Positions 1,996 to 6,771 of a DNA stretch of 24,185 nt are shown piece after piece. The stretch covers positions 1-24,185 of IMG/VR virus record IMGVR_UViG_3300050821_012852. One strand, written 5' to 3'. Positions within the stretch are counted from its first letter, which is position 1. Each line of letters opens with the position of its first letter. The DNA is from a virus. A program made the translations under genes and the position numbers. Below the pieces are notes generated by a model. The model was not told the DNA's origin, made no database searches, and saw nothing but the letters and a program-made list of their open reading frames with translations.

Positions 1996-2207
1996 GGCTT
2001 GGCTCCTTGGATGATCCGGACCGCCTGGTCATACATCTCCGGCACCTCCATTCTCATCTCCCCGGTCTCGAGCATCCACAGGCGGATGACCGGGAGGTCT
2101 AGCACTTTGGACGCCTGCTCTCGGCTCATGCCCTTCGACTCACGCGCCTCGCGCAGGCACCGCCCGCGATCCGCGTCCCCGTTTCCCCAGAACGTCTTGA
2201 ACTTCAT
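1992..2207 (-). CDS. XRE/Cro-type helix-turn-helix regulator
   Basis: A 71-residue protein almost entirely made of a Cro/C1-type helix-turn-helix: GRCLREARESKGMSREQASK gives the first helices, then LDLPVIRLWMLETGEMRMEV matches the recognition helix and the following W/E-containing segment of XRE domains. Proteins of this size usually act as small phage repressors or Cro-like regulators. AGGAGG lies 11 bases before the ATG, and the ATG shares its A with the stop of the helicase gene (TGATG). It is therefore made together with the replication helicase rather than from its own divergent promoter, which is unlike a classic lysogeny switch. Possible targets are the repeated dyads at 4740, 6762, 12345 and 14206. 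That link is only a suggestion. Confidence 0.8.
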   Translation of the reverse strand: MKFKTFWGNGDADRGRCLREARESKGMSREQASKVLDLPVIRLWMLETGEMRMEVPEMYDQAVRIIQGAKP

Positions 2208-3589
2208 CAGTCAACGTACCTCCTGTCCTCCGGCGGAGGACCCATGTCGATCTCGGGGTCCGAGAAGCGGTAGGTCTTCCCCGACCAGTGGACCCGGATC
2301 CGGGCCCGGCGCCCGTTCCGGTGCTTGCCCAGGTAGAGGTCGACGTCCCCCTCTGGGATCTCGTCCGGGTTGTGCGTCAGCAGGATGATGTCGCTGTCCT
2401 GCTCGATGTCCCCAGACTCCTTCAGGTCATGGATCGTCGGCGGTAGGACGTTCCCCTCCTTGTCCTTCTTGGCCTTCGCGCCCTCGCGGTTCAGCTGCGA
2501 GACCATGATCCATGTCATCCCGAGCGACCCGGCCATCCGCTTGACCCACTTCGAGATCATCCCGATCTCCCGCGCGCGGTTGTCCTTCGGGCCGCTATTG
2601 CCCATCAGCTGGAGCGTGTCGAGGACCCCGAGGACCTTCTTCTTGTTCGGGTACTTCGCGCGCAGCCGGCGGCACCGCGCCTCGATCAGGCGCATCGAGT
2701 CGACCTTCTTCTCCAGGTAGAGCGGCATCGCGTCGATCTTGTGCTTGGTCCCGTGCAGCCTCTTGAAGTCGTCGTGGTCCAGAGCGCCGTGCTTCAGCTT
2801 CTGGCTGTTGAGGCGCGACACGTGCACGAACTCGCGCTCCCCGAGCTCGGCCCGCGACATCTCGAGGTTGAACACGATCGCGACGCCCTCCGGGTCCTCG
2901 GCGCAATTGGTGGCGATCTGCATCGCGAGCGCGGTCTTCCCGCCGCCGGTGTCGCCCGCGATGGTGATCACCTGCTCGGGCTGCAGGCCCGCGGTGATGA
3001 CGTCGAGCCTGGTGATGCCCGTCTTGATCCCGGTGACGCTGCTCTCGCCGGCCTTCGACTTGAGGAACCGGTTCTCGAACTCCTCCATTAGCGGGTCCGT
3101 CAGCTCGGCGATCGGCACCAGGTCGGACCCGAGCCCGGTGCTGATCTTGAGCATCTGGCCGGCGTGCTCGTCCAAGAGCGCAGCCACCTCGGTGCTACCG
3201 TAGGCGCGCGACGCGGTATCGAGGCAGGTCGCGATGACCCGGCGGAGCTGGGACCTCTCCTTCACGATCGCGACGTACTGGGCGATGTTCTCCGCGGTGG
3301 GCGTCTCGTTCGCCAGCTTGAGGAGGTACCCCTCGCCGCCCTCGAGCCTCTTCAGCATCTCGCGCGACTTGAGCTCGTCCGCCAGGACCACGACGTCGAC
3401 CGTCCGGTCACGGCGGGCGATCGCCAGCATCGCGTCGAAGATCTCGCGGTGCGCCGGCAGGACGAAGTCGTCGACCTGGAGCTCGAGCCCGACCGAGTCG
3501 ATCACCGACGGCTTGATGAGCACGGACCCCAGGACCGACCGCTCGGCCTCCAGGCTGCGCGGTGGCTCGCGGACCGCGATGTCAGCCAT
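2207..3589 (-). CDS. dnaB: Replicative DNA helicase, DnaB family
   Basis: A 460-residue protein with the full DnaB layout. The N-terminal domain (about 8-110) begins PRSLEAERSVLGSVL and includes FVLPAHREIFDAM. It is followed by a linker and the RecA-like ATPase domain. The Walker A motif GDTGGGKTA is at about 212-220. Downstream are FNLEMSRAELGER, the Walker B-region strand VLGVLDTLQLM, SQLNRE, and the C-terminal ESGDIEQDSDIILL and YLGKHRNGRRARI motifs. The enzyme unwinds DNA ahead of the phage replication fork as a hexameric ring. Homology sets the start at MADIAVREPPRSLEAE, which overlaps the upstream gene by 8 bases; an in-frame extension of 18 residues is Arg/Ser-rich and not conserved. 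The gene directly upstream is a plausible loader or initiator for it. Confidence 0.95.
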   Translation of the reverse strand: MADIAVREPPRSLEAERSVLGSVLIKPSVIDSVGLELQVDDFVLPAHREIFDAMLAIARRDRTVDVVVLADELKSREMLKRLEGGEGYLLKLANETPTAENIAQYVAIVKERSQLRRVIATCLDTASRAYGSTEVAALLDEHAGQMLKISTGLGSDLVPIAELTDPLMEEFENRFLKSKAGESSVTGIKTGITRLDVITAGLQPEQVITIAGDTGGGKTALAMQIATNCAEDPEGVAIVFNLEMSRAELGEREFVHVSRLNSQKLKHGALDHDDFKRLHGTKHKIDAMPLYLEKKVDSMRLIEARCRRLRAKYPNKKKVLGVLDTLQLMGNSGPKDNRAREIGMISKWVKRMAGSLGMTWIMVSQLNREGAKAKKDKEGNVLPPTIHDLKESGDIEQDSDIILLTHNPDEIPEGDVDLYLGKHRNGRRARIRVHWSGKTYRFSDPEIDMGPPPEDRRYVD

Positions 3590-4238
3590 AATCGGGCAGC
3601 TTCTTCCCGCCCGGCGCCGCGGGCTCCTCGACGCGCAGGCCACCGAAGTCGGTCACGAAGAACGCGAAGGGGTGCTTGGCGCGCACCACTGCCGGGGATT
3701 CCGAGGCCAGGAAAGCGGTGAACATCCGATGCGCGGACTGCTGCGCCTCGATGACCTCCCCAATCGGCAACCGCGCCAGGAGCTCAGTGAGCGCGGAGCA
3801 TCCCTTGGCGTCTGAGGTGTTGCCGTAAAACTTGTGGTACTTCTGGCTCCAGGCGAGCCCGTACTTCAGGCACCAGTCATATGGCTTCCAGATCCGTGTA
3901 ATCAGGGAGGGATTAGGAGATCCCCGATCCGGATCCGGTCCGGATACCGGATCGGAACCCCCCCCTAAATCCCCCCCCGATTGGACAGACCGGTCGCGAT
4001 CGGGGTCAAAATTTTCGTTACCCTGGCCATTAGTGGCCATCGGTGGCAATAGGCGTCTAGGCGGCGGCTTCTCCTGGCCACCTGGGAGCACCAGTGAGTT
4101 GGCGTTCGGGCGCTCGTCAGTAGTCCACCTGGCGCCGCACGCTGGGCAGGTGCGCCAGCGCTTGACGACCGCAGCGTCACCGAAGGACTTGGTCACGCGG
4201 GAGCCGGTCGCCCTGCACTTGGGGTTCTGGCAGTTCAC
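3582..4238 (-). CDS. Zinc-ribbon protein, putative replication initiator or helicase loader
   Basis: A 218-residue protein. The N-terminus is a zinc ribbon (C3, C8, C31, C34) with the sequence RWRTCPACGARWTTDER, very like the zinc ribbon of NrdR. Residues about 50-110 are a low-complexity Gly/Pro/Asp linker. The C-terminal half (about 111-218) is helical, with WKPYDWCLKYGLAWSQKYHK and HRMFTAFLASE. The GTG at 4238 is preferred over the GTG at 4256 because it forms a GTGA overlap with the HNH stop and has AAAGGA 8 bases upstream. It sits immediately before the DnaB gene, as lambda O, lambda P and related initiators and loaders do, and its linker DNA is repeat-rich. A DNA-binding end plus a helicase-contacting end is a reasonable model. 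The role is inferred from position and layout, and a transcription regulator remains possible. Confidence 0.75.
   Translation of the reverse strand: MNCQNPKCRATGSRVTKSFGDAAVVKRWRTCPACGARWTTDERPNANSLVLPGGQEKPPPRRLLPPMATNGQGNENFDPDRDRSVQSGGDLGGGSDPVSGPDPDRGSPNPSLITRIWKPYDWCLKYGLAWSQKYHKFYGNTSDAKGCSALTELLARLPIGEVIEAQQSAHRMFTAFLASESPAVVRAKHPFAFFVTDFGGLRVEEPAAPGGKKLPDYG
3916..4020 (-). other. Candidate replication origin inside the initiator-like gene
   Basis: This segment encodes the low-complexity linker of the upstream-of-DnaB protein. It holds five GATC sites (3919, 3926, 3932, 3950, 3998) and overlapping CCGGAT/ATCCGG hexamers at 3927-3952, including the perfect palindrome CCGGATCCGG (3929-3938). 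It also has two runs of eight C (3958-3965 and 3971-3978) separated by TAAAT, and an AT-rich patch CAAAATTTTCGTTA at 4007-4020. Iterated sites plus an AT-rich stretch inside an initiator gene is how the lambda-type origin is built. The comparison is structural only, and no function has been shown. Confidence 0.45.
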
Positions 4239-4696
4239 CTTCGGGTCCTTTCCCACCCGTCAAGACACAACCGGACGACATCAATGAGTCCTTCCGAGTC
4301 GGTATTGGCGATGTCCTGTACTTCATTGATGGGGACTCCGGCCGCCATCGCTATGCCGCTGACCTGCGCATGTGTCAGGGCCTGAACCACGGGTGGACCG
4401 TGGCCGGCGATCGCGGAGCGCGCGTGGACGAATGCAAGAACGCACTCGTCTTGAAACCACGACATCATCCCGATCGCGCGCATCATCCGACGTCTCATCT
4501 CGTCGGCCTCCCCGTGGCACTTCTGGCACAGGGCCTCCAAGCTGGAGGTCGGATAATCCCAGTCCTTCTTTCCCGCTTCGTAATAGCGGTGGTGGACATT
4601 TAGGCGCTCGGTCTTAGATGAGCAGTGCTCGCAGCGACCGTCGGCGCGTTCGATGACCTCGGCGCGCTTCTTTCGCCAGGCAACGGAAGTTTTCAT
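4235..4696 (-). CDS. HNH endonuclease
   Basis: A 153-residue protein with a classic HNH fold in the first 65 residues: WRKKRAEVIERADGRCEHC (first zinc knuckle), LNVHHRYYEAGKKDW (the double His with the catalytic His), then LEALCQKCHGEAD (second knuckle and last His). HNH enzymes nick or cut DNA using one metal ion. In phages they occur near terminases, as homing endonucleases, or in replication modules. The C-terminal part is helical and unrecognised, and it has a pattern (THAQVSGIAMAAGVPINEV) that could be a small DNA-binding helix-turn-helix. AGGAGG lies 10 bases before the ATG. It is followed by the putative initiator gene with a 4-base overlap. A homing role is possible, but the coupled position suggests a settled operon member. 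Confidence 0.88.
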   Translation of the reverse strand: MKTSVAWRKKRAEVIERADGRCEHCSSKTERLNVHHRYYEAGKKDWDYPTSSLEALCQKCHGEADEMRRRMMRAIGMMSWFQDECVLAFVHARSAIAGHGPPVVQALTHAQVSGIAMAAGVPINEVQDIANTDSEGLIDVVRLCLDGWERTRR

Positions 4697-4739
4697 AAGG
4701 CTAGGTCCTCCTAGTGGGGGGTGGCGGGGGGCTTGGGGA

Positions 4740-4755
4740 CGGGATATTACCCGGG
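4740..4755 (-). promoter_or_regulatory. 16-bp repeat, candidate operator (copy 1)
   Basis: The sequence CGGGATATTACCCGGG occurs here and again at 14206-14221, identical over 16 bases. It covers the stop codon of the 75-aa gene and lies about 44-59 bases before the HNH gene. On the minus strand it reads CCCGGGTAATATCCCG, a near-dyad around TAATAT. Related sites are GGTAATTACC at 6762-6771 and a shorter match at 12345-12356. It could be a regulator binding site or a minus-strand -10 element. Confidence 0.45.
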
Positions 4756-4974
4756 CAGGTCTGGGAACCAGGTCTGCCGGATGATTTCGACGCCGGCGGC
4801 GCTGACCTCCGTGGTGAGCCAGTGGCAGGTCCCGACGGTCTCGTAGACGACCTGGCAGATGTCGGGGAAGAGGTAGAGGTGGTCGCGCAGCCGGTCCTTG
4901 ATGAACCTCGCGAGAGCCCGGCGCATATGCTCCGCTACGACCTCGGGGGTGAACTTCGGTTCCCCCGCGCTCAT
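4747..4974 (-). CDS. Small protein of unknown function, 75 aa
   Basis: A 75-residue protein starting MSAGEPKFTPEVVAEHMRRA. It is predicted to be mostly helical, with a charged first helix (MRRALARFIKDRLRD) and a hydrophobic, Trp-containing end (GVEIIRQTWFPDLPG). I recognise no domain. The ATG at 4974 overlaps the stop of the HerA-like gene as ATGA and has GAGGAG upstream at workable spacing. A GTG at 4983 would be too close to that ribosome site. It may be a small partner of the ATPase, but only the coupling supports this. Confidence 0.65.
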   Translation of the reverse strand: MSAGEPKFTPEVVAEHMRRALARFIKDRLRDHLYLFPDICQVVYETVGTCHWLTTEVSAAGVEIIRQTWFPDLPG

Positions 4975-6734
4975 CGGAGCCACAGCTCCTCGACCGCGCG
5001 CAGCCGGTTACCCTGCGCGCGCTCGGCCAGGCCGTTGGCGGTCAGCTTCGACAGGTAGGTCGGGAATGTCCCGCCCTTGATCTCTAGCCTGGCGAAGTCG
5101 GCGAGCTCCGCCCTGGTCTTCGGCGTCCTCTCTGCCGCCAGCCACTCCAGCATGTCGGCGGCCTTCCCGGGGAGCTTCTCCCGCCACATGGCCAGCAGCT
5201 CGCGCGCGGTGGCGGGCTTGAGGACGTCGCCGGCGGCAGCGCGCCCGGCAGGCGTGAGACGCACCAGGCCGCCCTCGCGCGTGATGTAGCCCTGGACGCC
5301 GAGCCGGGACAGGTAAGTGGGGAACGACCCGCCGCTCGGCTTCATGACGGCCAGGGTCCCGAGCTGGCGGTAAGTCAGGGCCTTGGGATGGACCTCGGCA
5401 AGCGCGATGAGCATGCGGGTCGAGCCGTCATTCGGCGCGCGCGCGTCCTTTCGGGTGAACGCGCGCATGACCGCGGTGTCCCCCCGGTGGTCGCGCGGCA
5501 GGTCCTCGATCGAGAACCGCTTCCCGGGTGGGTTTGGGAGCGCGGTGTTGAGGCGCTGGATCTCGGCATCGAGGGTCGGCGCCGGATCGCCCGGTAAGAC
5601 ACCGATCGGGATCCCGGGCATCGTCTCGGTAGCATCCAGGGCGGCCTTGATGGTGCGCCACATTTCCCCGTGCTTGCGGGACGCCTCCTCGAAGGACCTC
5701 ATGCATCGGTCGAGGTTCTCGCGCGCGGTGTCGCGCTCGCGCTGGAGCTGGTACACCGCCTCGCCGGTGGCGCCCCCGGCGCTGATCAGGTTGCGTTGCA
5801 GCTCAGCGATCCGGGCGCGCAGGACCTTCGGGTCGTCGGTCTCCTTCTGGTCGGAGATCTTCCCCATCATCCCGCGGATCTTTTCCAGGTCGACCGGGGC
5901 GAGAGCGCGGACCTCCACGTCGTCCGGGTCGAACTCCTTGGGGCTCGCGCTGGTGTCCATGGTCCGCTTCGGGTGGAAGCGCGTCCTGACCATCATCCTG
6001 AGCCACTGGGGGGACCAGAGGTAGACCGTGCCGACGGGCAGGCTCGGGAGCTCCGCGAGCGCCTTCGCGTCCATGCCCTGGTCGGTCACCCAGCCAGCGA
6101 TCGTCTTGCGCTCATGCGGGCCCGTGAGCTGGCCGGTGACCAGGACCTCGGTCAGGTTGAGCGCCGACTTGCTCACCGCCTGGGGCCGCTGCGAGATGAG
6201 CGTCCCGCCGATCCCGAAGTTGCGCCCGACGCGCCAGAGGCGGAGGAACGCACCCAGCATGCGCTGCTCGCCGGGCATCGGGTTCTGCGGGACGAACTCC
6301 TGCGCCTCGTCGACGATCAGGTGCATGGGGGTCCGGTGGCGCTTCTTGAGCGAGTACAGGTGCTCCGCGAAGTCCGTGGCGAAGCGCCGCTGGTCGGCGC
6401 TGCTGAAGTCGGAGACATCTAGCACCACCGACTGCCGGCGCGCGGCGACCAGCTCCGCCACCAACTCGCCCGACCCGGGGGCCAGTGCGATGTCACCGCG
6501 CAGGCCCCCGAAGACTGGGATTGGGATGCCCCCCGGCCCGCCGGAGGCGTCCAGGCGCAGGCCGTACCAGACCCCGACGGGGTCGAGCACGACGACCTGG
6601 GCGCCGCCGTCGAGTAAGGTCTCAGCGAGTTTGCCGGCGTTGTACGTCTTGCCGGCGCCGCGCCGGGCTAGGAACGCGAACGTCTGCACCGGTGCATCCG
6701 CCGGCAGGTCTACGTCGGGAGCAAGCTGGAACAT
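4971..6734 (-). CDS. HerA/FtsK-like ATPase with two winged-helix domains
   Basis: A 587-residue protein. Residues 1-260 form a HerA-type motor: Walker A ARRGAGKT (23-30), VVVLDPVGVWYGL (48-59), Walker B MHLIVDEAQEFVP (137-149), and GRNFGIGGTLISQRPQAVSK (170-189), which matches the HerA sensor and arginine region. Such hexameric motors move along double-stranded DNA and in archaea work with a nuclease in end processing. Residues about 290-370 are a charged coiled-coil-like region. The C-terminus has two related winged-helix units, at about 441-502 and 528-587, sharing GGSFPTYLSRL and GGTFPTYLSKL. AGGAGA lies 8 bases before the ATG. The Cas4-like nuclease and the SMC-like ATPase upstream are possible partners. 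A packaging ATPase is less likely, because no terminase nuclease domain is present. Confidence 0.85.
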   Translation of the reverse strand: MFQLAPDVDLPADAPVQTFAFLARRGAGKTYNAGKLAETLLDGGAQVVVLDPVGVWYGLRLDASGGPGGIPIPVFGGLRGDIALAPGSGELVAELVAARRQSVVLDVSDFSSADQRRFATDFAEHLYSLKKRHRTPMHLIVDEAQEFVPQNPMPGEQRMLGAFLRLWRVGRNFGIGGTLISQRPQAVSKSALNLTEVLVTGQLTGPHERKTIAGWVTDQGMDAKALAELPSLPVGTVYLWSPQWLRMMVRTRFHPKRTMDTSASPKEFDPDDVEVRALAPVDLEKIRGMMGKISDQKETDDPKVLRARIAELQRNLISAGGATGEAVYQLQRERDTARENLDRCMRSFEEASRKHGEMWRTIKAALDATETMPGIPIGVLPGDPAPTLDAEIQRLNTALPNPPGKRFSIEDLPRDHRGDTAVMRAFTRKDARAPNDGSTRMLIALAEVHPKALTYRQLGTLAVMKPSGGSFPTYLSRLGVQGYITREGGLVRLTPAGRAAAGDVLKPATARELLAMWREKLPGKAADMLEWLAAERTPKTRAELADFARLEIKGGTFPTYLSKLTANGLAERAQGNRLRAVEELWLR

Positions 6735-6761
6735 GGCGGGGTTCTCCTGGGGTTTTCAGGG

Positions 6762-6771
6762 GGTAATTACC
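6762..6771. promoter_or_regulatory. Perfect palindrome, candidate operator
   Basis: GGTAATTACC is a perfect 10-base palindrome 28-37 bases before the HerA-like start, inside the only sizeable gap of this block (6735-6833). Its half-site GGTAAT is shared with the repeats at 4740-4755 and 14206-14221. A dimeric helix-turn-helix regulator is the natural reader of such a site. A neighbouring TATTTACACGG on the minus strand makes the area AT-rich enough to hold a promoter, although I see no convincing -35/-10 pair. Confidence 0.4.

Follow-up and report, generated by a model that had tools for sequence, protein, structure and literature searches.

In phage lambda, iterons and an AT-rich tract lie in the middle of the initiator gene O, in that order (PMC7466680). 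We analyzed a 24,185-bp stretch of viral DNA (the window), which is an entire IMG/VR record and probably a fragment of a phage genome, and compared one of its genes with this system and with others. As in the lambda origin, which is also found in gene O of Stx phages, direct repeats occur in the linker-coding middle of a putative initiator gene, an AT-rich tract lies on their C-terminal side, and a replication gene is located directly downstream. The two systems also differ. The annotated lambda iterons are 18 bp long, whereas the candidate repeats of the window phage are 10 bp; a P-type loader follows O, whereas a DnaB-type helicase gene follows here; and the 224-aa window protein, which has a zinc ribbon as its N-domain, did not match any lambda O-type family in Pfam and PHROGs scans. 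The N-terminal halves of the PHROG 9474 and PHROG 16167 initiators and of DUF1376 (YdaU-like) primosomal proteins are found on relatives of the window protein's C-domain, but the window protein itself has the zinc ribbon in place of such a half. The zinc ribbon, with its two cysteine pairs, resembles that of the repressor NrdR. However, the window match is below the Pfam cut-off, no ATP-cone was found after the zinc ribbon in a Pfam scan of the 224-aa protein, and the rest of the protein and the gene context are different. The coordinates of the features are given in Table 1.

Table 1. Features of the putative initiator gene and its surroundings, in window positions
Feature	Position	Strand	Evidence
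Putative initiator gene, 224 aa (zinc ribbon, disordered linker, helical C-domain)	3582-4256	-	
NrdR-type zinc ribbon coding part (residues 9-48; profile match 12-48)	4113-4232	-	Pfam PF22811, weak PDB NrdR matches, three strands in model
Linker-coding DNA, residues 49-121, proposed origin	3894-4112	-	Direct-repeat excess; linker predicted disordered
C-domain coding part, common to ten phage relatives	3627-3893	-	
DnaB-type replicative helicase	2207-3589	-	Pfam DnaB_C 1.8e-54, DnaB 4.7e-29
HNH nuclease gene, directly upstream of the initiator gene and overlapping its start	4235-4696	-	
Three 10-bp tandem repeats TGGCCATTAG/TGGCCATCGG/TGGCAATAGG, best iteron candidates	4024-4053	.	Sole window position at this score
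Further TGGCCA, possible fourth partial repeat copy	4075-4080	.	
AT-rich patch CAAAATTTTCGTTA, candidate unwinding element	4007-4020	.	Surrounding 30-mer in the window's top 0.17% for AT
G8-ATTTA-G8, possible G-quadruplex	3958-3978	-	Motif scan; RNA-parameter energy only
GATC sites, CCGGAT/ATCCGG units and 11-bp repeat (3924-3945); putative accessory element	3919-4001	.	

The zinc ribbon matched PF22811 with an E-value of 1.9e-5 and 24.9 bits, just under the cut-off of 27.2, and gave weak matches to NrdR in the PDB; its three strands were modeled with low confidence. The linker is rich in Gly, Pro and Asp and was disordered in the structure model (pLDDT about 45-51), while the C-domain was confidently modeled as helical. 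The C-domain had no sequence match in Pfam, PHROGs (none at a meaningful E-value) or the PDB (weak matches only). Searches of the PDB with its fold gave nothing at E<=0.001 from Foldseek and weak matches from VIA-align (best Z 3.7), and all matches to phage proteins among viral predicted structures, such as a regulator from a Klebsiella phage and a protein from a Ralstonia phage, had E-values above 0.2. The DnaB gene starts within the last codons of the initiator gene. A canonical G-quadruplex motif, GGGGGGTGGCGGGGGGCTTGGGGACGGG, was seen on the plus strand at 4716-4743, upstream of the HNH gene.

A profile search with the C-domain found ten further uncultured-phage records, a small set, in which the domain is 34-47% identical to that of the window. 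No relatives of the protein or of its C-domain were found in cultured phages, none of the C-domain in two scans of bacterial genomes, and additional viral scans with other alignments gave no new records. In eight of the ten relatives, the N-terminal half matches a known phage initiator or primosomal family: PHROG 9474 replication initiation in L006, L008 and L010, PHROG 16167 replication initiation in L009, and the primosomal-type DUF1376 in L007, L012, L013 and L014. The N-terminal halves of L011 and L015 were assigned to no family. The linker proteins could not be aligned, and all invariant residues are within the C-domain. DnaB is encoded near the initiator in 4 of the 11 records (the window, L007, L012 and, further on, L009), and a homologue of the window's HNH gene precedes the initiator in L014. 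Several other features of the relatives were observed. The initiator of L007 (3519-4432) changes frame between its DUF1376 and C-domain halves, either through a sequencing error or through a true frameshift in the linker. A C-x2-H ... C-x2-C tail, zinc-binding in look, follows the C-domain in L006, L008, L010, L013 and L015; the window protein does not have this tail and has its zinc ribbon at the N-terminus instead. Also, the gene directly upstream of the L006 initiator (3026-3496) encodes a DnaA C-terminal DNA-binding domain (PF08299, E 9.8e-10).

Direct repeats were assessed by counting near-identical 12-mer pairs at offsets of 6-59 in the 210 nt before each C-domain and comparing the count with synonymous permutations. 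Ten of the 11 family members showed an excess in both runs (p<=0.011, most <=0.001), and the eleventh, L007, gave p 0.011-0.023. The window's repeats are less pronounced than in most relatives, with an excess in the linker DNA at p 0.005-0.011 and at p 0.032 when codons were drawn from the usage of the gene. For L006, L007, L011 and L015, the excess was found at codon-periodic offsets only. As a positive control, lambda O around the annotated iterons showed the same statistical signature (p<0.001). In contrast, only 2.5% of 81 in-frame windows from the other genes of this phage reached p<=0.011, and the parts of the relatives' initiator genes that encode the N- and C-domains were never in excess. 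When windows were ranked by repeats over whole records, the linker fell within the top 0.2-2.6%. The repeat sequences differ from relative to relative. Repeats present beside a linker protein that cannot be aligned are the opposite of what the original prediction had set against itself, namely relatives with the linker conserved as protein and the DNA repeats lost. Cumulative GC skew, which had been proposed as a check, did not point to the site: in the window and the ten relatives' records, most of its extremes fell at the ends of the records or at a distance from the linker, and it gave no signal.

Other repeats were noted outside the initiator linkers. The window is also repeat-rich near 1-320 (GCG-type repetition) and near 2290, neither of which looks iteron-like. 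An 11-bp repeat (GGGGTTCTCAG) is present in 2.5 copies beside an AT-rich stretch at 6738-6764, where the SSB gene is separated from the start of the gene at 4971-6734, and an inverted repeat outside the larger ORFs at 425-451, TAGCCACGCTATACGTGTATGGCTA, is a possible operator. A different kind of array was seen in L002 (IMGVR_UViG_3300044819_000092), downstream of the initiator gene of that phage, and was absent from the other records compared. It has a 5-nt period (NNGGC repeated), is apparently noncoding and spans about 4118-4230 and 4970-5710, with a lag-5 identity of 0.51-0.54 per 300 bp. Its blocks of about 50-90 nt are separated by a repeated element near TTTTCTTCTCAACGGYTTTTCGAGG, present in at least six copies about 88-117 nt apart.

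The excess of repeats could have arisen without any origin function, from slippage together with relaxed codon usage where the protein linker is low in complexity and free of constraint. The linkers of the family members are indeed low in complexity, and the C8 runs of the window, the four copies of GCTCCC in L006 and the three copies of TTCACGG in L010 look like slippage products. However, equally low-complexity windows of the same loci were seldom in excess (3.6% of 220 at p<=0.013), and the repeats are frequently separated by other DNA instead of being strictly tandem. A natural recombinant pair also argues against slippage. L007 and L012 have N-domains identical at 82 of 99 positions, and their linker DNA contains the same 12-bp repeats, which have been kept despite C-domains that are widely different (36/88). 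In a second recombinant pair, L010 and L013 share 68 of 88 C-domain residues, while their N-domains are unrelated and their repeats different; the likeness of their linker DNA is confined to the 43 nt next to the C-domain and begins after the repeats. The two pairs indicate that the repeats are passed on together with the N-terminal half, as would be expected if that half reads them. We regard slippage alone as an unlikely source of the repeats. The ten relatives, the lambda O control and the recombinant pairs support the proposal that origin repeats lie in the linker-coding part of an initiator gene before DnaB. A linker that can drift as protein would leave its DNA available for an origin.

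Within the window linker, the original prediction had pointed to an origin made up of a GATC/CCGGAT cluster, two C8 runs and an AT-rich patch. All these motifs were found where it had placed them. GATC occurs at 3919, 3926, 3932, 3950 and 3998, and the four sites per 35 bases form the densest such stretch in the window. The overlapping units are CCGGAT at 3929, 3940 and 3947 and ATCCGG at 3927 and 3933, with the palindrome CCGGATCCGG at 3929 and another copy of it at 2294. The C8 runs, at 3958 and 3971 with TAAAT between them, are the sole C8/G8 runs in 24 kb, and the AT-rich patch CAAAATTTTCGTTA is at 4007-4020. For the suggested minus-strand G-quadruplex, the G8-ATTTA-G8 sequence is the only canonical motif on that strand, and such a structure may form there.

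To some extent, the cluster reflects codon choice. When the protein was kept constant and codons were sampled according to the usage of this phage, the maximum of GATC per 35 nt (p=0.0004) and the G8 count (p=0.004) were unusual, and neither the CCGGAT/ATCCGG count nor the AT-rich 14-mer was matched in 5000 trials (0/5000 each). When only the linker's own codons were permuted, G8 was still significant (p=0.0008), but GATC/CCGGAT became borderline (0.07-0.08). A good part of the GATC signal therefore comes from Asp being written as GAT. Asp is encoded by GAT in 5 of 7 cases in the linker, compared to 33 of 319 in the other genes of the phage (GAC in 286/319). The same preference was seen in nine relatives, with GAT in 18 of 21 cases in the last 120 nt of the linker compared to 22 of 134 elsewhere in the same genes. 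GATCCGG was considered as a family-wide motif, since it is found near the C-domain in several linkers, but was rejected because it is inseparable from Asp-Pro coding.

The range covered by the original prediction ended just short of three 10-bp tandem repeats at 4024-4053, which it had missed. This is the best three-copy 10-mer tandem in 24 kb. It was spotted by eye before testing and was tested over five periods; against synonymous nulls it gave p<=0.0002, with 0 of 3,000 trials matching when five periods were allowed. In the direction of the gene, the order is zinc ribbon, 10-bp repeats, AT-rich patch, G8 runs with the GATC cluster, and C-domain. The prediction of iterons followed by an AT-rich region, with the GATC cluster as the iterons, failed because the gene is read from the minus strand, where the patch precedes the cluster. 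If the 10-bp repeats are the iterons, the lambda order is restored; if the GATC cluster is, it is not. With the 10-bp repeats, the window shares three features with lambda: direct repeats in the interdomain linker part beyond the demand of the protein (weaker than in most relatives), an AT-rich tract adjoining them on the C-domain side, and the overlapping helicase gene directly downstream.

Another possible explanation is that the GATC/CCGGAT cluster at 3919-3953 is itself the iteron set and the 10-bp repeats are irrelevant. Its GATC density and the three copies of ATCCGG at 7 and 11 bp fit such a role, as does the GATCCGG-like DNA in the linkers of L008, L009 and L014. However, this likeness hardly stands out from a synonymous null, with p 0.026 for L009 (linker DNA on the C-domain side) and 0.23 for L008 and L014, and it follows an Asp-Pro-rich peptide. 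Also, L009 shows it although its N-domain is unrelated, and the AT-rich patch is on the wrong side of the cluster for the lambda order. The cluster is thus probably not the main iteron set, and we consider this explanation improbable. The repeats could also be an operator at which an NrdR-like protein binds inside its own gene and regulates the replication operon without starting replication, as the likeness of the zinc ribbon to that of the repressor and the potential of bound repeats to block downstream dnaB transcription might suggest, but this is very improbable given that relatives with initiator-type N-domains retain the same layout, that the ATP-cone of NrdR was not found and that an AT-rich patch next to the repeats fits an origin better than an operator.

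The most likely reading is an intragenic origin of the lambda type, whose initiator combines an NrdR-like zinc ribbon as DNA reader with a helicase-side domain that is undescribed. We give a probability of about 0.72 to the linker-coding DNA at 3894-4112 being a replication origin with a lambda-like layout, in a gene whose product is not recognizably related to lambda O. In such an origin, the zinc ribbon of the gene's own product would bind the short direct repeats in its own gene, with those at 4024-4053 as the best candidates, and the adjoining AT-rich patch at 4007-4020 would open. The conserved helical C-domain may then help to recruit or load DnaB from the next, overlapping gene. Co-inheritance in the relatives argues for repeat binding by the N-domain, gene order points to the step between C-domain and DnaB, and unwinding and initiation within 3894-4112 are what we infer from the sequence. 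More tentatively, and at somewhat less than even odds, the family may be a modular class of initiators in which one uncharacterized domain on the helicase side pairs with unrelated DNA-binding domains, each with its own iterons in the same gene. Here, an NrdR-like zinc ribbon would have replaced the usual N-terminal domain as origin reader and brought its own 10-bp iterons.

If this reading is correct, the lambda principle of an origin within the disordered linker of the initiator would extend to uncultured phages with initiators not recognizably related to lambda O. The new helicase-side domain and the zinc-ribbon origin reader are nominated as candidates, and repeat excess over synonymous permutation offers a simple computational test for phage origins in metagenomes. 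In the natural recombinants, reader domain and repeats appear to be swapped as a single cassette and the helicase-side domain to be retained, and these phages make the co-inheritance of initiator and origin directly testable.
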